Positions 1,582 through 34,389 of a stretch of DNA of 35,305 bases are shown here, one piece after another. The DNA comes from Dysgonamonadaceae bacterium (GTDB lineage Bacteria > Bacteroidota > Bacteroidia > Bacteroidales > Azobacteroidaceae). The notes beneath the pieces were generated by a model. That model ran no database searches and had not been told where the DNA came from. It saw only the letters and a list, made by a program, of their open reading frames with translations. The stretch is taken from positions 1 to 35,305 of the forward strand of contig JAISFI010000051.1 in assembly GCA_031263685.1 (NCBI GenBank), read 5' to 3'. Position 1 is the stretch's first letter; every line of letters begins with the position of its first letter. The translations under genes and the position numbers were made by a program.

Positions 1582-3884
1582 CTTACTACAAATCTTTGCT
1601 TCAGCAGGTCTTCGTCTCGCGAGGATTTCCCCACCATTACCGTAAACTCGCCGCGCTCTACTCCGTAGCGCATGTCTTTGCTGTAAAAGGCCAGCTTGTT
1701 GGGGGTAATGGTAAAGGCTACGGTCTTTGCTTCTCCTGCCTTGAGGGGTACGCGGGCAAAGTCTTTGAGCTCCTTTACGGGACGGGTTGCGCTGCTCGTG
1801 TTGTCGCGCAGGTAGAGCTGCACAATCTCAACGCCCTCGCGCCTGCCGGTGTTCTTTACGCGTACCTTTACCTCAATGCTTTCTTTGGCGGAAACAAGGG
1901 TCTTGCTTAGTTGCAAATCCGAGTACCGGTAGGTGGTGTACGACAGCCCGTAGCCAAAGGGGTAAAGCGGCGTGCTCGGCTTGTAGTCGGCGTAAGGGTG
2001 AAAGTACTGCGAGGGCTTGTGGTTGTAGTACATCTGTATTTGCCCCACGCTGCGCGGAATGGTAATGGCCAGCTTTGCCGAGGGGTTAACTGCGCCGTAA
2101 AGGATTTCGGCAATGGCCTGTCCGCCGTACATGCCCGGCGCCCACGCCTCCACAATGGCAGGCAGGTTTTGGGCAGCCCACTCCACGCCAAGCGGCCTGC
2201 CGTTGATCAGTACCAGAATGGTGGGCTTGCCCGAGGCGGCCACTTTTTGTATCAGCTCATTTTGCAGCCCTGCCAGGTCAATGTCCGAGCGGTCGGTATC
2301 CTCGCCGTCGGTGCGCTCTGTCCAGCGGTAGCGCATCATGTACTCGCCGGCCACCACAATGTTAAGGTCTGCCGAGCGGGCTTTTTGGGCGGCCAGGGCT
2401 ACCCTGCCCCTGTCCATATTGCGCGGATCCCAGCCCTGATCAACAAGCTCAAAGGTGGTTTCGGGAGCGGCCTGCCTCAGCCCTTCGAGCACGGTAATCA
2501 CGTTATCGGGGCGCTGCTGCGCCGACCAGTCGCCCAGAATGTTTTCGTCATCGGCGTTGATGCCGGTAACGAGGACTTTCCTGTACTTCTTTGCCTGTAG
2601 GGGTAAGATGTTACCCTCGTTCTTCAGCAGCACAATGCCGTTGCGTGCCGACTCCAGGGCGGTACTCCTGTGCTCGCGGTTGAGACGTATTTGCATGGAC
2701 TCTTCAACATCCGCATAGGGCTGCTCAAACAGCCCCAGCCGGAACTTGACCGCAAGAATCCGGCGCACCGATTCGTCTATGCGCTTTTCGGGGATACGCT
2801 TCTCGCGCACCAGCTCTGCTACCATCCTGTTCCAGTGGATGCCGTGCATGTGCATGTCCATTCCCGCCGCAATGGTTTGGTAAAACGCTTCCTTGAGGCT
2901 GTCGGCGGTAGCGTGCAGGTCGTAGACGTGCTCAATATCCATCCAGTCACTCACCACAAATCCTTTGAACTTCCACTCGCCGCGCAGCACGTCTGTCATC
3001 AGCCAGTCGTTCGTATGGCAGGGTATGCCGTTCAGCTCGTTGTGCGACATCATAACGGACATGGCACCCGCCTCAATGCCCTTGACGTAGGGCGGAAAGT
3101 AAACCTCGCGCAGGGTACGCTCCGACAGGTCGGCAGGCGCGCCGTTAGTGCCGTTGGCAGGCTGGCTGCCGCCGACAAAGTGCTTGATGCACGCCAGTAC
3201 ATCCCTCTTGCCGTTTAAGTCCTGCTGATAGCCGCGCACCGATTGCGCACCCATCAGCGACACCAGGTAAGGGTCTTCGCCAAAGGTTTCGCCCACACGC
3301 CCCCAGCGGGCATCGCGCGCCACCTCTACGTTGGGGTTAAACGTCCAGTGCATGTTCATGGCCCGCATCTCAAGGGCGGTTTGGCGGGCTATGGCGTAGG
3401 CCGCTGCCGTGTCAAAGGAGCAGGCCAGGTTGATATTCGTAGCATACACCGTGTTGTCGGGCGCATTGGCGTTGCCGTGTATGGCGTCTATGCCGAAGAT
3501 GACGGGGATGGGCAGGCGGCTTTGCATGGCCAGCGATTGCAGGTAGTTTGCCTCTTCAACGGTAAGGACGTGCAGGAAGGAGCCAATCAAGCCCTGCTTT
3601 GTCCAGCTTTCCACATCTTCGATGCTTGTGTTTGGATAAAAAGCGTTGGCGGTGTTGTTGTGCAGCTCCTCTTCTGTGAGGCTTCCCTGCGCCGCCCTGA
3701 TGTGCTCAATGCCGACAAACTGGTTCATTTGCCCGACTTTTTCTTCCAGCGTCATCCGTCCCAAAAGATCTTCTACTCGCTGTTCAACTGAAGCGGAAGG
3801 TTCTTTATAAAGTTCAGGCTTGTTATCCGAACACGAGGCGGCAGCTAAAGCGATTGACATGATGGTAAGGGTACAGTGTTTCAT
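1578..3884 (-). CDS. GH3 beta-glycosidase (BglX-like), lipoprotein
   Basis: Family 3 exo-acting beta-glycosidase, likely beta-glucosidase or beta-mannosidase, that would trim oligosaccharides released by the mannanases. A signal peptide with AASC (Cys18) suggests a lipoprotein. The N-terminal barrel carries GIDAIHG (131-137), ARWGR (192-196), KHF (234-236) and the nucleophile Asp313 in VVSDWMD. The second alpha/beta domain follows, and the C-terminal fibronectin-III-like domain (about 660-768) contains VQLYLRD and KELKDF. At 768 aa the length is normal for the BglX group. It starts 11 bp after the SASA esterase and overlaps the GH5 gene by 4 bp. Glucosidase versus mannosidase cannot be settled from motifs; a glucomannan substrate would need both activities. 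Confidence 0.93.
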   Translation of the reverse strand: MKHCTLTIMSIALAAASCSDNKPELYKEPSASVEQRVEDLLGRMTLEEKVGQMNQFVGIEHIRAAQGSLTEEELHNNTANAFYPNTSIEDVESWTKQGLIGSFLHVLTVEEANYLQSLAMQSRLPIPVIFGIDAIHGNANAPDNTVYATNINLACSFDTAAAYAIARQTALEMRAMNMHWTFNPNVEVARDARWGRVGETFGEDPYLVSLMGAQSVRGYQQDLNGKRDVLACIKHFVGGSQPANGTNGAPADLSERTLREVYFPPYVKGIEAGAMSVMMSHNELNGIPCHTNDWLMTDVLRGEWKFKGFVVSDWMDIEHVYDLHATADSLKEAFYQTIAAGMDMHMHGIHWNRMVAELVREKRIPEKRIDESVRRILAVKFRLGLFEQPYADVEESMQIRLNREHRSTALESARNGIVLLKNEGNILPLQAKKYRKVLVTGINADDENILGDWSAQQRPDNVITVLEGLRQAAPETTFELVDQGWDPRNMDRGRVALAAQKARSADLNIVVAGEYMMRYRWTERTDGEDTDRSDIDLAGLQNELIQKVAASGKPTILVLINGRPLGVEWAAQNLPAIVEAWAPGMYGGQAIAEILYGAVNPSAKLAITIPRSVGQIQMYYNHKPSQYFHPYADYKPSTPLYPFGYGLSYTTYRYSDLQLSKTLVSAKESIEVKVRVKNTGRREGVEIVQLYLRDNTSSATRPVKELKDFARVPLKAGEAKTVAFTITPNKLAFYSKDMRYGVERGEFTVMVGKSSRDEDLLKQRFVVR

Positions 3885-3895
3885 GCTGATTACAG

Positions 3896-5299
3896 TTAAA
3901 ATTGGTCTGTTCTAAAGGGCAGCAGCGGCAGCCCGTTAGCATCAAAGAGGTTGGGGATGATTTCGCCGAAGCAGTAGCGCACGGCAACCGGCTGTGCAAC
4001 CTTTTTGGCCGACACCGTAATGGTTCCGTCCTTCTCTACTCTTGCGGCGGCAGGATAAAACTGCCTGTCTGCACCGCAGATTTGGAAGCCGCAGATTTCC
4101 TTCCCCCTGCACGAGAGCTTACCGTAGGACTTTACGGTAACAACCGCCTTGCCTTTTGCCATGCGCAGGCTTTCAAATGCGGGGAAATCGGTTTGCAAAC
4201 CCGTTACGCCGTAATGTCCGGCAAGCGCCGACCACACCAGACGCATGCCGACTTCCTTTTTAATGCGCGGATGAATGTCCGAAATGTCGTTCACCAAATC
4301 GCCAACAGAAATCATGCCCGTACGGGGAATGGCCAGACAACGCTCCTGCTGCTCGCGCACAAGCGCGGCGCTTGTTTGCCAGTAGCCGTTCCAGGGAGCA
4401 ATTTGTACGTAGTAGAATGGAAAATCGCTGCCAAAGACCTTGCGCCAGCCGTCAATCAGCGCGCCGAAAAGCAGCCCGTAATCTTCCGGAAACTCAGTAT
4501 TTGCCTCGCCCTGATACCAGATTGTGCCGGCAATACGGTAGTTTATAAAGGGAAAAATCATGGCGTTGTAAAGCGCAGAGGGTTCTGTTGGGCACCAGTT
4601 TACGGGCGTAATTTTATCGGCCAGCGTTTTAAGTACGGTGTCGCGGCAAAAGACCTCGCCCGGCATCCACGCTTGCACGCTCGACCCGCCCCAGTACGAG
4701 GCAATCAGCCCGACCGGAGCGCCTGTGGCCTGGTGGATTTGTTTGCCGAAGTAGTAGGCAATGATGCTCATTTTATCGGCGCTTTCGGAGGTGCAAACCT
4801 CCCAGCGGCCGCTTTGGTTTTCGAGCGGAAAACGGCTGTAGTCGTGCTCCACGCGGAAAAAACGCAGCTCGTTGTTGGCGGCGTTTGCCACCTCGTCGGC
4901 CACATCAAGGGCGCTGCGGTCGTAGTCCCTGAATGCAAATTCCATATTCGACTGCCCCGAGGCAAGCCAAACCTCTCCGGTCATAATATCGGAAACAGCG
5001 ATGCTGTAATTGCCGCACACAAAGTCGATGCTGTACCTCTTATTGCTTGCTTTGGGGGTGCGCACGGTGGTTTCCCACAAAGAGTTTTTGCCCGGCACGG
5101 CGGTGAGCGTATCGCTCGGATTCCAGCTGCACACCACCCTTACGGTAAAGGTGCTGGGGCCCCAGCCCCACAGCTTTACGTCGGTATTCTGCTGCAAAAC
5201 GGCATGGTCGCCAATAATCGACGGCAGGCGAAGAGGTGTTTGCGCGGCGGTAGCTAGCGCAAAACAGGTAAATAAGGATAGGATAAGCGTCTTTTTCAT
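3896..5299 (-). CDS. SASA-family carbohydrate O-acetylesterase
   Basis: Sialate O-acetylesterase-like (SASA, SGNH fold) esterase. Here it probably removes acetyl groups from mannan backbones rather than from sialic acid, since no sialic acid genes are nearby. A signal peptide (1-19, cleaved near TAAQ) predicts export. The nucleophile block is WLASGQSNMEF (Ser117), the middle block GTIWYQGEAN (258-267), and the Asp/His block DIHP (Asp341, His343). The N-terminal 20-105 region, starting LPSIIGDHAVLQQ, is the usual beta-rich domain. At 467 aa it is complete. It lies 10 bp after GH26 and 11 bp before GH3, within the operon. Deacetylation would expose acetylated glucomannan to the GH26/GH5 enzymes; that role is inference from context. 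Confidence 0.88.
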   Translation of the reverse strand: MKKTLILSLFTCFALATAAQTPLRLPSIIGDHAVLQQNTDVKLWGWGPSTFTVRVVCSWNPSDTLTAVPGKNSLWETTVRTPKASNKRYSIDFVCGNYSIAVSDIMTGEVWLASGQSNMEFAFRDYDRSALDVADEVANAANNELRFFRVEHDYSRFPLENQSGRWEVCTSESADKMSIIAYYFGKQIHQATGAPVGLIASYWGGSSVQAWMPGEVFCRDTVLKTLADKITPVNWCPTEPSALYNAMIFPFINYRIAGTIWYQGEANTEFPEDYGLLFGALIDGWRKVFGSDFPFYYVQIAPWNGYWQTSAALVREQQERCLAIPRTGMISVGDLVNDISDIHPRIKKEVGMRLVWSALAGHYGVTGLQTDFPAFESLRMAKGKAVVTVKSYGKLSCRGKEICGFQICGADRQFYPAAARVEKDGTITVSAKKVAQPVAVRYCFGEIIPNLFDANGLPLLPFRTDQF

Positions 5300-5309
5300 T
5301 GCTCTAAAA

Positions 5310-6674
5310 TTATCTTGTAACTACAAATTGTTGGTTTACCGCGTTGAGCCACCATTGTTTGCCGGCATGTTCGTGGGGCAGAATGTCGGAATCTGCGGCA
5401 TTGTAATCATACCAGGGCATAAACCACGCCCAGCGCGCTCCCGCGTTCCACTGTTCGCCTATATTTGCCACGTTGCCGCACTCGGCAAGGGTTATCATTT
5501 TGGTGGGATACAAGTCCTGAATTTGCTTAAACTGCGCTGCGGTAGCCGTAGCGCTCGCGTTGTTGTACAAATCGCGGCCAACAATATCCACATAGCCGTT
5601 GCCCGGGTAAAAGGGCGAATCGGTTACTTCGGTTGTCCAAATCCAAATAAGGTTGTTTAAGCCTTTGGATTCAAAATAGTTGAACATATAAATCCACAGG
5701 CTTTTGAAGGCTTCTGCGCCATCGCGCCCCCACCAGAACCAGGCCGCACCCTTGTAGCCCGTTGCGTACATATTCCCTGCCGCCTCATGCAAGGGACGCC
5801 ACAAGACGGGGATGTTTTTATTTTTCAACAAAAGCAGGTAGTCCGCCATTTTTCCCAAATCGGCAAGCATTACTGTATTCTCCCAAGTTCCTGAAACTAA
5901 CGCATTTGCAGGACGAAAAGTAGTTTCTTCCGGACGAAAGGTTACATCACCACCAGCAGCGGTTTCCGATTTCGGAACATTCCAATGCCACATGGCGCCA
6001 ACAATGCCGCCTGCATTGTGCCAGTTTTCTATTACCGAAATATCACCGTAATCGATCCAATTCGTCGGCGAAGCCCACAAGTGAATATAATCGAATACGT
6101 TGATTTTGGGAAATTTGCCTGTCCACCGTTCAACACGTTCGGCCTCTACGGTATTCCACGCCACCTGCGCCACGGTTCCGGCAATGATTTTGTTGCCGTA
6201 GCTTCCTCTTAAATAGTTGTATAGCGCCACTGCTTCGGGCGAGGGGTTTTCGGTAACGGGATTTTTTGCTATTTCAAGTGCGGCAGCGGTTGTAAAGGAG
6301 ATTTTTATTTCGTTAGTTTCCACTTGATTGGGGCCAAGAATGACGCCTTTGGGTATGGTCAACGTATACGTTTTTTCCGCTTGCAAGCCGACAATATTTA
6401 TTATAATTTCTTTCGACTGAACGGAAATACTCGAAATTCCGGTATCGTTTATGGAAACTTTGCTGTGTCCCGCCGAAGGGCAAAATACGATTTTGTCAAA
6501 TTCAAGCCTGACGGAAATATCGCCAACAGGTACATTGACTGCGTTGTTTTGCGGAATTGAATGAAGCAATACGGGCGGATCAATTTCGAGAACAGCAGAT
6601 GTATCAGATTCCTTGCAGTTTGTTAACAATATAGCTGTCAACAGAACCAATAATATGTTTGATGCTTTTTTCAT
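5310..6674 (-). CDS. GH26 endo-beta-mannanase with N-terminal Ig-like domain, lipoprotein
   Basis: Family 26 mannanase. I start it at the ATG of MKKASNILLV (6674), because an upstream GTG/ATG start at 6692 would add six residues before a normal signal peptide ending LTNC. Residues of about 30-130 form an Ig-like domain (PP...P..NAVNVPVGDI, resembling bacterial Ig_5). The catalytic barrel follows, with acid/base Glu297 in RPLHEAAG, the WFWWG motif, and nucleophile Glu398 in TLAECGN (numbered from this start). It is the first enzyme gene after the binding-protein genes and is preceded by a hairpin at 6686-6716. Its job is endo-cleavage of mannan at the cell surface. The Ig domain probably acts as a spacer from the membrane. 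The family is secure; the exact specificity is inferred. Confidence 0.92.
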   Translation of the reverse strand: MKKASNILLVLLTAILLTNCKESDTSAVLEIDPPVLLHSIPQNNAVNVPVGDISVRLEFDKIVFCPSAGHSKVSINDTGISSISVQSKEIIINIVGLQAEKTYTLTIPKGVILGPNQVETNEIKISFTTAAALEIAKNPVTENPSPEAVALYNYLRGSYGNKIIAGTVAQVAWNTVEAERVERWTGKFPKINVFDYIHLWASPTNWIDYGDISVIENWHNAGGIVGAMWHWNVPKSETAAGGDVTFRPEETTFRPANALVSGTWENTVMLADLGKMADYLLLLKNKNIPVLWRPLHEAAGNMYATGYKGAAWFWWGRDGAEAFKSLWIYMFNYFESKGLNNLIWIWTTEVTDSPFYPGNGYVDIVGRDLYNNASATATAAQFKQIQDLYPTKMITLAECGNVANIGEQWNAGARWAWFMPWYDYNAADSDILPHEHAGKQWWLNAVNQQFVVTR

Positions 6675-6685
6675 TTTTGAAAAAG

Positions 6686-6716
6686 GGGACATTCTTTCAC
6701 ATAAAAGGAATGTCCC
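6686..6716 (-). terminator. Terminator-like hairpin inside the PUL operon
   Basis: A perfect 9-bp stem (GGGACATTC at 6686-6694 with GAATGTCCC at 6708-6716) encloses a 13-nt A/T-rich loop. On the minus strand it is followed by CCTTTTTC. It sits in the only long gap (66 bp) of an otherwise tightly packed operon, 24 bp after the TIG-protein stop and just before the GH26 start. It could be a leaky terminator or an mRNA-stabilising stem that gives more binding-protein than enzyme message. Confidence 0.6.
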
Positions 6717-6740
6717 TCTTAGAAAAAATACCGTTAAAGA

Positions 6741-8636
6741 CTACATTATTATGATAGAAACATCTTCGATGGTGTATTTCTGTCCTCCGACAATCAAACC
6801 GCTTGATTGCAGTTTTTCTAAAATTTCGGGCGTTATTTCCAGATCAAAATTTCCTGTAATATCGAAATAGTCTGTTCCGGTTGCAATTTCGGACCAAGTT
6901 GCTCCATCTTTGAATGAACCTTGCGCACCTGCTTCCACATCCGATGTTTTTACATGGATGATGCTGCCAACCGTTGCATTTGCAAATTTTTCTTTCTCAA
7001 TTTGCGCATATCCCGACCAGCTACCGGTAGAAGTCGGTCCGGTATAAATTACAGTTTCCACAGCGCCGTTCGCTTTAACGTTGATGATGTATGAAATGTC
7101 GCCGTTAGACGAAACAAGCTTCAACGTATTGTCTCCGGAAGCGCCGGAAGGAATACCGATATAGAGGTTATTTCCGCTCAAAACATACTGCATAGTTGTT
7201 CCATTCCATTCAATGCCGGTTAGTTTGTCTTCATTCGTAATTTCAACCTGCCATACACTGCCGGCAGCGATTTCTCCTTCGGGCATTACCGGAATGTAAG
7301 CTACTAAAGGTTTATCCACCGTAAGCGAAGTTTCGGTTGTTACGCTTTCACCGTTTGCCATGGTCAAAGTAATTTCGCCAGTTTCTGCATTGGTTGGTAC
7401 TTTTACGGTCAGGCTCGCAGACGAAGTTGCCGTTACATCCACGTTTTTGTTGCCGCCAAAGGTAACGGAAGCCACTAAATCGAGATTCTCACCTTGTATT
7501 TCTACATTTTCACCTGCCGAAACCGGATTCGGATTATAAGCTGCAAATACCGGCTTCAGTGTTTCAATATGGACACTCCCGGTTTTTCCGCTTGCTGTGT
7601 TCAAAACTAAATCACCACTTTGTGCACCTTCGGGGAAAGCAACTTTTATTCTGCCCGGTTCTATAACCGTAGGAGTTACCGGATTATCTATGCCTGCAAA
7701 CGTTACAGTAGTTACAAGATCCAGATTTGTACCACTGACTGTGATTTCGTCGCCTGCACGCAAACCGGCAGCAGGAGTGGCTTCAAGTTCATCCGGAGCT
7801 GCCACGTCGATATTTCTCACTATCACACGCACGCCGGATGCGGGAATCATAACCACCGCTCCGTTGCTAATATTATTGGGTAAGGTAAATGTTAATGTAT
7901 TATTTAGGATATCGAAGGGCACTGATGTTCCGTCGGGCATTTCTACCGTAACGACAAGATCGAGGTCTTTTCCTGCTGCGGAGATTTGTTCGCCCGGTTT
8001 TATGCCCGTCTGGGTCAACGTTTCATCTACCGAAGGTAATACTACTTGCAATGCTGTTTCCGATTTAAGTTCAAACGGTATCTCGGCAGTATCTGCCAAA
8101 ATAATAGTGCCTGTTCGTGCTTCGGCAGGAAGCACAAGTTCTATTTTTTCGCGCGTCCATGTAGTGAAGTTCTGACATTTCACTTCTATTTCTTCGGCAA
8201 AAACAACTTTTTGAATCAAGTTCAGATAGTCTCCTTCAATAGTAAGCGTTTGCCCTCTCTTGAGAGGCGAAGGAGTTATGCCGGTAATTGTAATCGGCTC
8301 CGTAAAAGTCAATTCGCCTTTGGCAGTCAATTTACTACCACCTGCCAAAAGCAACTCGATGATACCCGGTTCGGCTTGTTGCGGAACAACAATTTTGAAC
8401 TTTGTTTTATCGCCGTTTTCGCGTAAAAGATCTTCTATTTTAATGTTTCCGGGGAACACAACGGCTATTACCGGATCTAAATTTTCACCGACAAAGGTCA
8501 TCTCGCTGCCGCGCAATGCGGGATTGGGGCCAAAGGCTTTAAGTTGCGGCGCCGTACTCTCTATTCCGTCTTCAGAACAAGCGAAAAACACAACGGCAGC
8601 AATCATTGCCCATGCTATTTTAAATAAATTTTTCAT
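6741..8636 (-). CDS. Multi-TIG/IPT surface lipoprotein, probable mannan-binding protein
   Basis: A lipoprotein (signal ends FFAC, Cys20) of 631 aa, built from about five IPT/TIG Ig-like repeats of roughly 85 residues (about 30-455). Each has the pattern of a short entry strand, P-x-x-(G/A)-G-(D/E)-x-(I/V)-x-(I/V)-x-G-x-(N/D)-L, and a V-T-F/V-x-F segment. A linker domain (about 455-535) and a C-terminal beta-sandwich (535-631) follow. The latter, with STGSWSGYAQI, GATWSEIA and GLIVGGQKYTIEDV, looks like a carbohydrate-binding module. I chose the ATG of MKNLFKIAW because the longer frame starts inside the end of the preceding gene. Gene position, third after susC, suits an accessory surface glycan-binding protein. 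The C-terminal module's family and ligand are not known to me. Confidence 0.85.
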   Translation of the reverse strand: MKNLFKIAWAMIAAVVFFACSEDGIESTAPQLKAFGPNPALRGSEMTFVGENLDPVIAVVFPGNIKIEDLLRENGDKTKFKIVVPQQAEPGIIELLLAGGSKLTAKGELTFTEPITITGITPSPLKRGQTLTIEGDYLNLIQKVVFAEEIEVKCQNFTTWTREKIELVLPAEARTGTIILADTAEIPFELKSETALQVVLPSVDETLTQTGIKPGEQISAAGKDLDLVVTVEMPDGTSVPFDILNNTLTFTLPNNISNGAVVMIPASGVRVIVRNIDVAAPDELEATPAAGLRAGDEITVSGTNLDLVTTVTFAGIDNPVTPTVIEPGRIKVAFPEGAQSGDLVLNTASGKTGSVHIETLKPVFAAYNPNPVSAGENVEIQGENLDLVASVTFGGNKNVDVTATSSASLTVKVPTNAETGEITLTMANGESVTTETSLTVDKPLVAYIPVMPEGEIAAGSVWQVEITNEDKLTGIEWNGTTMQYVLSGNNLYIGIPSGASGDNTLKLVSSNGDISYIINVKANGAVETVIYTGPTSTGSWSGYAQIEKEKFANATVGSIIHVKTSDVEAGAQGSFKDGATWSEIATGTDYFDITGNFDLEITPEILEKLQSSGLIVGGQKYTIEDVSIIIM

Positions 8637-20479: not shown

Positions 20480-20584
20480 TTAATGAATTAATTGGATGTG
20501 GCAGAAAACAGGATGTATTATATTGCTAAATAATTATATCTTAGATAATTGATTATGACATATCAGAATGTCAGAAATAAATAT

Positions 20585-20636: not shown

Positions 20637-21521
20637 ATGAATACACAAAACATTTTAAGAGAAATCACTCCCCTGTCGGAAAAAGACTGTTTTTACGTGG
20701 TAGAACGTTTCAAGTCCGAGTTCATTTTCCCTGTACATACTCATCCGGAGTATGAATTGAATTTTATCGAAAAGGCAAAAGGCGCTCAACGTATTGTAGG
20801 TGATTCTATTGAAGAAATCGACAATTTGGAATTAGTGCTTATTACCAGTGAAAATCTGGAACACGTCTGGGTAAATCACAATCATAAGTTAACTATGATC
20901 AGGGAAATAACCATACAATTCCACCCTTCGCTTTTCGATAGAAATTTGATACATAAAAATCAGTTTAAAAGTATCAAGGAAATGTTTGATAAAGCAAAGA
21001 AAGGTCTTCTTTTTTCACGTCGAACAATTGAAAAGGTGGAACCGCTGCTGTCATCGTTAATCTTTGAAAAAAACGGCTTTTATTCTCTCCTTAAATTAAT
21101 GTCTATTTTGTATGAATTATCCCAGAGCGACGATTCACGTATTTTGGCAAGCTCTTCGTTTGTAGGAAAAGAGGTTACTTTTGACAGTCGCCGTGTAAAA
21201 ATAATACACGAATACATTGAACAGCACTACCGGGAGAAAATCAAAATAAGCGATGTCGCTATGCTGGTCTATATGACGGAAGGAACATTCAGCCATTTTA
21301 TCAAACGCCGTACAGGCAAGAGTTTTACGGATTATGTGCTGGATGTTCGGCTGGGATATGCCATCCGCTTACTGGTTGATTCAACACATTCTATCGCCGA
21401 GATTGCCGATTTGTGCGGCTTCAACAATCTGTCGAATTTTAACCGGATTTTCAAGAAAAAGAAGCTCCTTACGCCAAAAGATTTTCGTAATCAGTACAAA
21501 AAGACGAAGATGATTTTGTAA
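20637..21521 (+). CDS. AraC-family transcriptional regulator with cupin sensor domain (PUL regulator 2)
   Basis: A 294-aa paralogue of the regulator at 15087-15974. The start at 20637 (MNTQNILREITPLSEKDCFY) is chosen by alignment with that paralogue and by the -7 element just upstream; the frame is open from 20568. The N-terminal cupin-type sensor includes FPVHTHPEYELNF. The C-terminal AraC HTH pair includes REKIKISDVAMLVYM, FSHFIKRRTGKSFTDY, SIAEIADLCGFNNLSNFNR and KKKLLTPKDFR. It is divergent from the GH26-CE7 operon and most likely controls it through the repeat at 20446-20479. The last 66 bases of the gene are repeated at 22999-23070 beyond an insertion. The gene itself is intact. Confidence 0.93.
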   Translation: MNTQNILREITPLSEKDCFYVVERFKSEFIFPVHTHPEYELNFIEKAKGAQRIVGDSIEEIDNLELVLITSENLEHVWVNHNHKLTMIREITIQFHPSLFDRNLIHKNQFKSIKEMFDKAKKGLLFSRRTIEKVEPLLSSLIFEKNGFYSLLKLMSILYELSQSDDSRILASSSFVGKEVTFDSRRVKIIHEYIEQHYREKIKISDVAMLVYMTEGTFSHFIKRRTGKSFTDYVLDVRLGYAIRLLVDSTHSIAEIADLCGFNNLSNFNRIFKKKKLLTPKDFRNQYKKTKMIL

Positions 21522-21527
21522 TAGGGA
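21456..21527 (+). repeat. Left copy of a 72-bp direct repeat (araC 3' end)
   Basis: This copy covers the last 22 codons of the second araC gene and six bases beyond its stop. It matches 22999-23070 at 70 of 72 positions. The two differences (CGT/CGC, CAG/CAA) are synonymous in the araC frame. Confidence 0.95.
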
Positions 21528-21529
21528 TT

Positions 21530-21731
21530 CTAATGTAATAAAGGAGCTAAACGAATCGTTGTGCACACTAATCCAGTCGCCGTGTTCGTTGGGCGCGAGG
21601 CCGGTCATCAGTCCTTGTGCCTGCATATTGATTACAGAGCGGTACCGGGGCGCACCAAATCGAGTTTTTGTTCACGGCTGAGGTAGTCGTCCACAGGGTG
21701 GTAGTATATTTTTGCTTTTGTCAGAACTGTT
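21530..21731 (-). pseudogene. Fragment of a type ISP-like restriction-modification enzyme
   Basis: Directly after the DUF1016 stop the minus strand reads LTKAKIYYHPVDDYLSREQK, ending at a stop near 21640. A second frame then gives MTGLAPNEHGDWISVHND and FSSFI up to the repeat border. The pair KAKIYYHxxxDYLSREQK and PNxHGDWIxxxNDxF resembles, from memory, the methylase part of predicted helicase/type ISP restriction-modification proteins. The fragment lacks both ends and has a frame change, so it is dead. It suggests the cassette derives from a defence locus. No search was run. Confidence 0.55.
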
Positions 21732-22742
21732 TCATTTAAGCGTTTTAAAAACTACATTGCGAAGTTCTTCCAAATCGGGCAAATACATTTGATATTTCGA
21801 CACAAAAAGTTGGTTGCTGTTGCCATACATTGCGTACTGCACCATTATTTCGTCTTTTTCGCGGGCAAGGATAATGCCTATGGGAGGATTGTCGCCTTCG
21901 TTATTCTTGTCAATGGCAAAATATCCCAAATAAAGGTTCATTTGTCCGATGTCCTCTTGTTTTACTTTCCCTGTTTTCAGGTCGATAACTACATAACATC
22001 TCAATATGATATGGTAAAAAACCAGATCGGCATAATAATGCGTATTGTTTACCGTAAGGCGATACTGCCTGCCTACAAAAGCAAATCCTTTGCCGAGTTC
22101 GAGAAGAAAATGTTCGATGTTCTCAATCAAAGCGTCTTCAAGCGCCGATTCGGAAGGTTTTTGTTCGGGGATATTCAAAAAATCAAGTGTGTAAGTGTCT
22201 TTGATTATGTCTTCGGGCGCTTCAATGCGATTTCCGCTTCGTGCCAATGCCAGAATTTGCTCCTTATTTTTACCCAATGCCAACTGTATAAACAGCCCAC
22301 GTTCTTTTTGGTTTCGCAATTCGCGTACACTCCAGTTTTCACTGGCTGTTTCGGCAAGATAAAAATTGCGTTCAAGTTCGTTATCTATATTTATCAGTTC
22401 AATGATGTGCGACCAACTTAATTTTCCAGACAGTGTCTGGAAAATTGGGAAACGGATGTAAAACATCCTCATACTGAACAGGTTTGATTTTGAAAATCCC
22501 TTGCCGATCCGTGTCGTTAAATCTTTCGACAGGTTTATCAAAAGCGTATCTCCATAGTTCGCCCTCACTTTGCCATCCTGCTCAAATTCGACAATATATT
22601 TGCCTATATTCCAGTATGTTTCAACGAGTACGCTGTTAATAGCGGTTGCAACCTGTTTTTTAGAATTGCCCACAAGCAATGCTATCTGCTGAATCAGCGA
22701 GTCGTATTGCCTGTCTTTTGTATGTCTTAATGTTACTTCCAT
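21732..22742 (-). CDS. DUF1016 (YhcG-type) PD-(D/E)XK nuclease domain protein
   Basis: A 336-aa protein of the DUF1016/PDDEXK nuclease group, which often sits in restriction-modification and other defence clusters. The N-terminal domain (about 10-140) includes VLVETYWNIGKYIVEFEQ, SKDLTTRIGKGFSKSNL and RNFYLAETASENWSVRELRNQ-type segments. The C-terminal nuclease core has Asp239 (YYADLVFYH) and Asp254-Leu-Lys256 (VVIDLKTGK), followed by GQMNLYLGYF. I start at the ATG at 22742 rather than a TTG six codons earlier. A -7 element TAAATTTG lies 15 bp upstream. The gene is intact, though its restriction-like neighbour is a fragment. A function in defence is an inference from family context. Confidence 0.9.
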   Translation of the reverse strand: MEVTLRHTKDRQYDSLIQQIALLVGNSKKQVATAINSVLVETYWNIGKYIVEFEQDGKVRANYGDTLLINLSKDLTTRIGKGFSKSNLFSMRMFYIRFPIFQTLSGKLSWSHIIELINIDNELERNFYLAETASENWSVRELRNQKERGLFIQLALGKNKEQILALARSGNRIEAPEDIIKDTYTLDFLNIPEQKPSESALEDALIENIEHFLLELGKGFAFVGRQYRLTVNNTHYYADLVFYHIILRCYVVIDLKTGKVKQEDIGQMNLYLGYFAIDKNNEGDNPPIGIILAREKDEIMVQYAMYGNSNQLFVSKYQMYLPDLEELRNVVFKTLK

Positions 22743-22757
22743 ATTTCTTATTTTTTG

Positions 22758-22765
22758 CAAATTTA
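22758..22765 (-). promoter_or_regulatory. -7 promoter element of the DUF1016 gene
   Basis: TAAATTTG on the minus strand fits TAnnTTTG; a TTTG lies 15 bp upstream (22781-22784). The element leaves a very short leader, about 10 nt. Confidence 0.45.
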
Positions 22766-22998
22766 CTCTTTTTCTTTACCCAAATCGTTATCGCTATGAG
22801 TGTACGGCTACCACTGCCGAAAATTTTCCGCTTTCTTTTCGGCTTAGTTCGCCACTTGTACGCTGATTCCCTTGCTGTCGTTGTTCTCGTTCTGGCGGTC
22901 GGTTGTCCATAATAACGGTAATAGGCTTGTTTTTTTTAATAGTCCTGACAATTTTGGGCAAAGGTATTGCTTTTCTTGGATTTAGCAGTCAAAAGCAA
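22766..22998. other. Right part of the insertion, no confident gene
   Basis: The only open frame of note is a 38-codon minus-strand frame, 22794-22910, starting MDNRPPEREQRQQGNQRTSG. It is hydrophilic, Gln/Arg-rich and matches nothing I recognise. It may be the start of a gene lost from the cassette. The rest is A/T-rich and featureless. Confidence 0.4.
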
Positions 22999-23070
22999 AA
23001 AAAGAAGCTCCTTACGCCAAAAGATTTTCGCAATCAATACAAAAAGACGAAGATGATTTTGTAATAGGGA
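22999..23070 (+). repeat. Right copy of the 72-bp direct repeat (orphan araC 3' end)
   Basis: This copy encodes KKLLTPKDFRNQYKKTKMIL plus stop but has no gene in front of it. It matches 21456-21527 at 70 of 72 bases, and both differences are silent. Downstream, 23071-23221 holds no gene that I can see. Confidence 0.95.
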
Positions 23071-31018: not shown

Positions 31019-31340
31019 GGAGTAGAAACCGGAAATAAACCTGAGTTCGGTATCAGGATAGCCCGTTAGGGCTTATATCTCAATAGAAATCCGTTTTAAA
31101 ACATTTCCCAATGTCCGTCAGGACATTCATTGATGAAACCTCTACGAGGTTTTCGTTGTGATTTGAACCATTTTTCTATTGAGATATAAGCCCTAACGGG
31201 CTATCCTTACGCCGAATGTTATTTCCGGTTTCCACTCCTTTATTTCATACATTTTTTCTATTGAGATATAAGCCCTAACGGGCTATCCTTACGCCAAATG
31301 TTATTTCCGGTTTCCACTCCTTTACTTCATACATTTTTAC
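31019..31340. repeat. Hairpin-rich repeat cluster: one inverted and two tandem 82-bp copies
   Basis: Copies B (31176-31257) and C (31258-31339) are direct repeats of 82 bp with few differences. Copy A (31019-31089) is inverted: its 34-bp core, 31056-31089, is the exact complement of 31173-31206. Each core contains the mini-hairpin AGCCCTAACGGGCT. Between A and B are two more: AATGTCC/GGACATT around GTCA, and AAACCTC/GAGGTTT around TAC. The cluster fills the 516-bp gap between the repeat lipoprotein gene and the PAP2 gene, in which I see no coding sequence. It would be transcribed downstream of PAP2 and could terminate that message; it looks like a REP/MITE cluster. Confidence 0.85.
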
Positions 31341-31384
31341 TGTACGAGGCATGGTTTTGTGCATCGTCATTGCAAATCGTTATC

Positions 31385-34219: not shown

Positions 34220-34360
34220 TGATCGTTTGAGCCTCGGTGAACCGATCGTTTGAGCCTCGGTGAATCGATCGTTTGAGCCTCGGTGAATCGATCGTTTGAG
34301 CCTCGGTGAATCGATCGTTTGAGCCCCGGTGAATCGATCGTTTGAGCCTCGGTGAATCAA
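34220..34360. repeat. 23-bp tandem repeat array, six units
   Basis: Six near-identical units begin GATCGTTTGAGCCTCGGTGA and end with ATC (one unit has ACC, one has CCCCGG). Only three or so substitutions exist among them, so the array is young or homogenised. It ends in TCGAGGGAAGCTCGA, a small palindrome, before the stop of the MBG protein gene. The open frame through it is a by-product of the repeat. It shares the words GAGCCTCGGTG and GAATCGA with the array at 1-175. Confidence 0.9.
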
Positions 34361-34389
34361 TCGAGGGAAGCTCGATTATTTTCCGGCAA

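Follow-up and report, generated by a model that had tools for sequence, protein, structure and literature searches.

The window, meaning the whole stretch of 35,305 nt that was analysed, includes an araC-family regulator gene whose 3' end is present twice. The 72-bp sequence that closes this gene recurs in direct order at a spacing of 1,543 bp, with 97.2% identity between the copies (E about 1e-28 to 1e-30 for the pair), and the 1,471 bp that separate them hold an intact YhcG/DUF1016 gene and the frameshifted remains of a type IIG restriction-modification (R-M) gene (Table 1). A first-pass annotation of this DNA had already described two 72-bp copies of the araC 3' end around 1.47 kb with a DUF1016 nuclease gene and an R-M fragment, and this description is confirmed, the nuclease gene by PF17761 and PF06250 and the fragment by the PADLOC profile PDLC03597. 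The same annotation remarked on an intact target gene and a missing recombinase; indeed, araC is whole and the insert contains no integrase.

Copy A comprises the last 63 coding bases of araC, the stop codon, and 6 nt past the stop. The araC product is unchanged because this attached copy restores both the reading frame and the stop codon. Copy B does not form a reading frame by itself, and this orphan adjoins tsaD. The two mismatches between the copies fall at repeat positions 33 (T/C) and 39 (G/A), and in the araC frame they read CGT/CGC and CAG/CAA, both silent. It had been proposed that such silent differences reflect coding selection on both copies. The silence itself stands, but alone it is weak evidence for selection, since chance alone would make an estimated 6% or so of substitution pairs silent.

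Table 1. Features of the araC locus, in window coordinates
Feature	Position	Strand	Evidence
araC-family regulator gene, the target	20637..21521	+	PF12833 1.5e-19; 89% protein identity to araC of L038
Repeat copy A, araC 3' end and 6 nt after the stop; more likely the newcomer end	21456..21527	+	repeat comparison
Type IIG restriction-modification scrap, frameshifted	21528..21733	-	PADLOC PDLC03597 match, two adjacent pieces
YhcG/DUF1016 PD-(D/E)XK nuclease gene, the cargo	21732..22742	-	PF17761, PF06250, PADLOC PDC-S02
27-bp perfect palindrome with 1-nt centre, in the YhcG coding sequence	22420..22446		inverted-repeat analysis
Spacer, YhcG start to orphan repeat	22761..22998		no match elsewhere in the genome
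Repeat copy B, orphan araC 3' end; more likely the original resident end	22999..23070	+	both differing bases as in L038

The start of araC was placed by reference to the homologue in L038, the mechanical open reading frame starting at 20568. A search of the genome found neither a third full copy of the repeat elsewhere nor a second copy of the insert. Searches for tRNAs, Rfam RNAs, integrases, and transposases came back empty. The R-M scrap consists of two adjacent, out-of-frame pieces between the YhcG gene and copy A, which match profile positions 1168-1190 and 1204-1229 of PDLC03597 (E 0.009 and 7e-5); a Pfam search of these pieces gave no match. The window also has tandem repeats, an 82-bp unit present twice at 97% identity (31171-31341) and units of 22-23 bp at both window ends (1-174 and 34221-34363).

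Both domains of the YhcG family are present in the product of the cargo gene, DUF1016_N (PF17761, 5.6e-43) and YhcG_C (PF06250, 1.4e-58), and its best PADLOC match is PDC-S02 (3e-129). An alternative TTG start lies at 22760. The D...DLK core is conserved in the YhcG alignment, and in an AF2 model (pLDDT 75.7, pTM 0.45) the C-terminal nuclease domain is predicted to have a fold resembling that of NucS/EndoMS. A sequence search of PDB gave no match, and no relatives turned up in the viral contigs scanned. Judged from its sequence, the protein is probably a defence-type nuclease and a passenger of the cassette, carried along with it, because Fic genes show the same kind of footprint equally often (see below).

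The footprint at other genes

The generality of this arrangement was assessed by gathering YhcG relatives across the order (97 of 393 genomes at E <= 1e-60; 100 loci retrieved) and counting a footprint wherever a direct repeat scoring 40 bits or more had copies on both sides of the gene, each no farther than 600 bp away. Flanking direct repeats were found at 22 of the 94 testable YhcG genes in the order, as against 4 of 206 other open reading frames of 200-600 aa in the same loci (Fisher p 6e-9) and 2 of 358 in araC loci (Fisher p 2e-14), with some of the counted YhcG genes sharing one array, so that the counts are not fully independent. The same test applied to other accessory families gave 5 of 23 for Fic and 2 of 25 for DUF3990. 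The Fic result indicates that the footprint belongs to inserted accessory genes and not to YhcG alone, and the idea of a mobility specific to YhcG is weakened accordingly. The 72 of 94 YhcG genes that have no repeat by this test imply that other routes exist or that repeats decay. Neither YhcG nor araC causes the footprint; it reflects a general mode of movement at many unrelated genes in gut-type bacteria, with no special regulator site.

Indeed, the duplicated sequence differs at every locus, and the neighbouring gene stays intact. Duplicated 3' ends belong to larC (L161), an ftsE-like gene (L239, copies at 98%), and a DUF2461 gene (L179/L302), and duplicated 5' parts to an MGMT gene (L149) and a glycosyltransferase gene (L244). 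Elsewhere the repeat is the 5' UTR of pfk (L235), a terminator (L184, and also L340, where it surrounds Fic), the entire intergenic stretch of convergent genes (L191), or the stretch just past a phosphate-transporter-like gene, in copies that are 100% identical (L240), and a DUF3990 cassette duplicates its neighbour's 5' end (L322); these neighbour names were read off the sequences and not taken from a family-library search. The suggestion that a regulator 3' end serves as a dedicated attachment site does not survive this comparison, since each YhcG insertion duplicates a different sequence. Repeats measure 37-182 bp across the cases, and 16 YhcG inserts span 1.03-1.64 kb, with no terminal inverted repeats (TIR) and no shared end sequences among them. 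A transposon was rejected because TIR and shared inner ends are lacking, and an integrase- or tRNA-type island because there is no integrase and no common att core.

Several loci deserve separate mention. At L149, the intact gene continues past the repeat on its 5' side, in sequence that is homologous but divergent. At L240, the relative G271 aligns only as far as the stop of the transporter gene, so a single-copy site is not shown there. L147 carries an array (3714-7640) of three YhcG genes with related repeats of about 60 bp between them. G174 has two families of dispersed repeats, about 110-130 bp long and in dozens of copies (query L240 1500-4800, query positions 2323-2468 and 2640-2759). 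The repeats at L175 resemble what we take to be group II intron ends and were set aside. An ancestral linkage of tsaD and YhcG was considered for G065, where three genes intervene and the YhcG genes form an array of their own, and was dismissed as coincidence. No flanking target repeat was found around E. coli K-12 yhcG in the 2.2-kb stretch searched.

An empty site with a single copy, and a single gene end bordering different cargo, had been named in the first-pass annotation as things to look for. Both were found at the DUF2461 gene, a site comparable to araC and the one at which variation in cargo was assessed. In G455, a congener, DUF2461 runs directly into the conserved next gene with one copy of its end (1,217 bp at 91.4%). 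In further congeners the cargo at this site is a DUF3791 reading frame and a YhcG fragment in G128, an HTH protein and a HipA-like reading frame in G445, and a DNA methyltransferase and an ATPase in G437, all names being read from the sequence. In G319, three copies of the DUF2461 3' end, the first belonging to the gene itself, set apart a DUF3791/DUF3990 (toxin-antitoxin-like) cassette and a YhcG gene that is broken. Over the repeat, the second copy has 85.7% DNA identity to the gene and encodes the same 26 residues, and silent differences distinguish the three copies. Downstream of the middle copy, the flank resembles another species, and the last copy then carries the flank of the G455 empty site.

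How the gene end came to be doubled

The one close relative of the araC site is L038, a Tannerella MAG with the same araC at 83.7% DNA identity, a single 3' end, and a different downstream gene. Because this sole relative has a different neighbour, the exact pre-insertion junction is not seen at araC; the downstream flanks of copies A and B have no significant similarity to L038. At both differing positions, L038 has the base of the orphan copy and not that of the araC-attached copy. Since the orphan matches L038 at both sites, and since the distal orphan at DUF2461 carries the empty-site downstream flank, the orphan was more likely there first, with the gene-attached copy as the newcomer, a call that in the window rests on two bases. 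The orphan had been thought to come from another araC gene; its agreement with L038 makes it likelier to be the resident end.

An insertion is present, its target is doubled, the host gene is intact, and a recombinase is absent. We consider it quite probable that the window holds a single-gene YhcG cassette, about 1.47 kb together with the R-M scrap, which was inserted at the araC 3' end and thereby doubled the last 72 bp. The cassette may have entered through RecA-type, Campbell-like recombination within the duplicated stretch, the incoming molecule being perhaps a circle or a joined fragment of gene end and cargo. The gene would then receive the incoming end, and the resident end would become the orphan on the far side. 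A cassette would first be captured at a new gene by illegitimate insertion with long target duplication, the mode proposed for R-M genes, and the two modes are perhaps successive, with capture by long target duplication and spread between relatives by recombination. The silent differences, the distal flank in G319, and the divergent 5' extension at L149 favour the import of a gene end, and the non-coding targets and identical L240 copies fit insertion in one step.

A one-step insertion with long target duplication, in which no gene end is imported, has a substantial if less than even chance of being the whole explanation. It would readily produce repeats of 37 to 182 bp, non-coding targets included (L191, L235, L240, L184), would explain the many non-coding repeats without an imported gene end as well as the perfect identity at L240, and has a precedent in R-M genes, whose duplications are of the order of 100 bp (PMC3874152, PMC3031569). 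Yet it yields neither the pattern in G319, where identical residues accompany diverged DNA and the middle copy is followed by a flank like that of another species, nor the extension at L149. Homing-like insertion, in which the YhcG nuclease cuts the gene end and is copied in, seems unlikely. The relation of the nuclease fold to NucS/EndoMS and the strong enrichment of YhcG genes for the footprint would suit it, but Fic shows the footprint at the same rate, a DUF3990 cassette does so at a gene 5' end, and the targets have no common sequence.

Still less likely is a cryptic integrative element that uses gene 3' ends as attachment sites with its integrase supplied in trans. Restoration of a gene end is typical of integrase-borne islands, and the arrays at L147 and L302 resemble stacked cassettes, but the repeats differ per locus with no shared att core, 5' ends, UTRs, and intergenic DNA are duplicated too, and there are no common inner ends or TIR and no integrase in the insert. 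Lowest among these readings we place a remnant of a tandem araC duplication, with the second gene mostly deleted and YhcG in its place, which had been put forward earlier as the outcome that would overturn the cassette. Two direct-order copies of one gene end are what it would leave. Against this, no further araC sequence lies between the copies, nothing like a tandem araC remnant turned up, only one araC is present in L038, and the same pattern surrounds YhcG at unrelated genes; the accompanying question of cargo variation was addressed at DUF2461.

A palindrome within YhcG genes

A perfect inverted repeat whose arms are 8 nt or longer lies in or next to 89 of 106 YhcG matches. Its usual position is 12 nt ahead of the codons for an LSW[ST]H motif, and it sometimes occurs in tandem units of 36-48 bp. 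The sequence CAGACANTGTCTG has 12 occurrences in ten genomes, 10 of them inside YhcG genes, and the genome of the window has a single site (22427-22439). The palindrome is present in homologues from Klebsiella, Pseudomonas, E. coli, Vescimonas, and Leptolyngbya; a Nostoc homologue with the same peptide, CQTLSGKLSWSHY, has no palindrome in its coding sequence.

Pairing was measured in 85 distinct 27-mers from a site chosen without regard to pairing. At this site 63% of positions pair, compared with 40% when the 3' letters are reshuffled (maximum 44% of 1,000), 39% when synonymous codons are shuffled (maximum 42%), and 27% at random centres, the sequences sharing ancestry so that pair counts are not independent events. 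Between L212 and L215, two pairs have changed on both sides, and the amino acids differ. Mismatches include 23 G-T and 28 A-C with no wobble excess, and the fact that G-T is not commoner than A-C points to DNA rather than RNA. The excess of pairing over 39-40%, the two-sided changes, the lack of a wobble excess, and the absence of the palindrome in Nostoc despite the same peptide are the reasons why it looks to be under DNA-level selection.

Palindromes also occur just outside the gene, upstream at L154 and L157 and downstream at L203 and L378 (Nostoc), the one at L203 having the same arms as the intragenic copy. E. coli K-12 yhcG contains three tandem palindromic units with a CAGAC...GTCTG core (L287 4129-4233), and a fourth unit with the same core lies just past its stop (L287 4969-4995).

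Residues 106-150 of the window protein, in the DUF1016 N-terminal domain, are weakly similar to the LmbU family of HTH regulators, which are homodimers (PMC6510168). Such a match was found in 9 of 18 YhcG relatives, the best at an E of 0.0018, far below the cut-off of the LmbU model. We tentatively suggest, as a possibility on the doubtful side, that YhcG genes encode, just ahead of this HTH-like segment, a palindrome that is bound by their own protein, such that protein and site co-evolve and the cassette brings a regulator or licence of its own to wherever it lands. The covarying palindrome is a candidate self-recognition site and offers a concrete DNA target for the YhcG family. Palindromic elements are known in coding genes, the Rickettsia palindromic elements being an example. 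Like these, the YhcG palindrome lies within a reading frame and sometimes forms tandem units of a multiple of 3 nt; unlike them, it is tied to one gene family and one position, and in the window genome it is unique and not dispersed.

Relation to known systems

The window gene is like the PADLOC PDC-S02 and Pfam YhcG (DUF1016) family in both domains, and nothing was found on this family that describes such an insertion mode or an intragenic palindrome. Among the papers searched, likewise, none combined DUF1016 and direct repeats. Integrase-borne islands and integron cassettes share with the present case a restored target gene and cassettes stacked in direct order, but here there is no integrase and no conserved att or attC, and the site sequence differs per locus; of the IntI and attC of an integron, neither an integrase nor a common site was found.

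The araC insertion is accounted for as a single case of a broader way for genes to move that is in part already known. Judging from the survey, small accessory genes, here solitary nucleases, Fic, and toxin-antitoxin-like pairs, may spread in this order without a recombinase, reusing the ends of host genes, with empty sites and cargo that varies. If so, the defence gene pool would have a general route in insertion with long target duplication, so far known mostly from R-M genes, and hotspots could be searched for at gene 3' ends. To call the insert a new type of defence cassette, as was done at first, overstates the case, as work on R-M genes has described insertion with long target duplication before, and the footprint is shared here by cassettes of Fic and DUF3990. 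Nobusato et al. 2000 (Gene 259:99) and Furuta et al. 2010 (NAR) reportedly dealt with the insertion of R-M genes in this manner.

Insertion of R-M genes with long target duplication (reviewed in PMC3874152; see also PMC3031569 and PMC1643837) resembles the present case in its accessory DNA-modifying genes, its variable direct repeats of about 100 bp, the absence of a known mobile element, and, as seen here at the DUF2461 site, a single-copy empty site. What differs here is the cargo, a solitary DUF1016 nuclease (elsewhere Fic or DUF3990) accompanied in the window by an R-M scrap, and the setting, a Bacteroidales-like host order in which the targets are often gene ends. The copies, moreover, can differ silently, as if one end had been imported.
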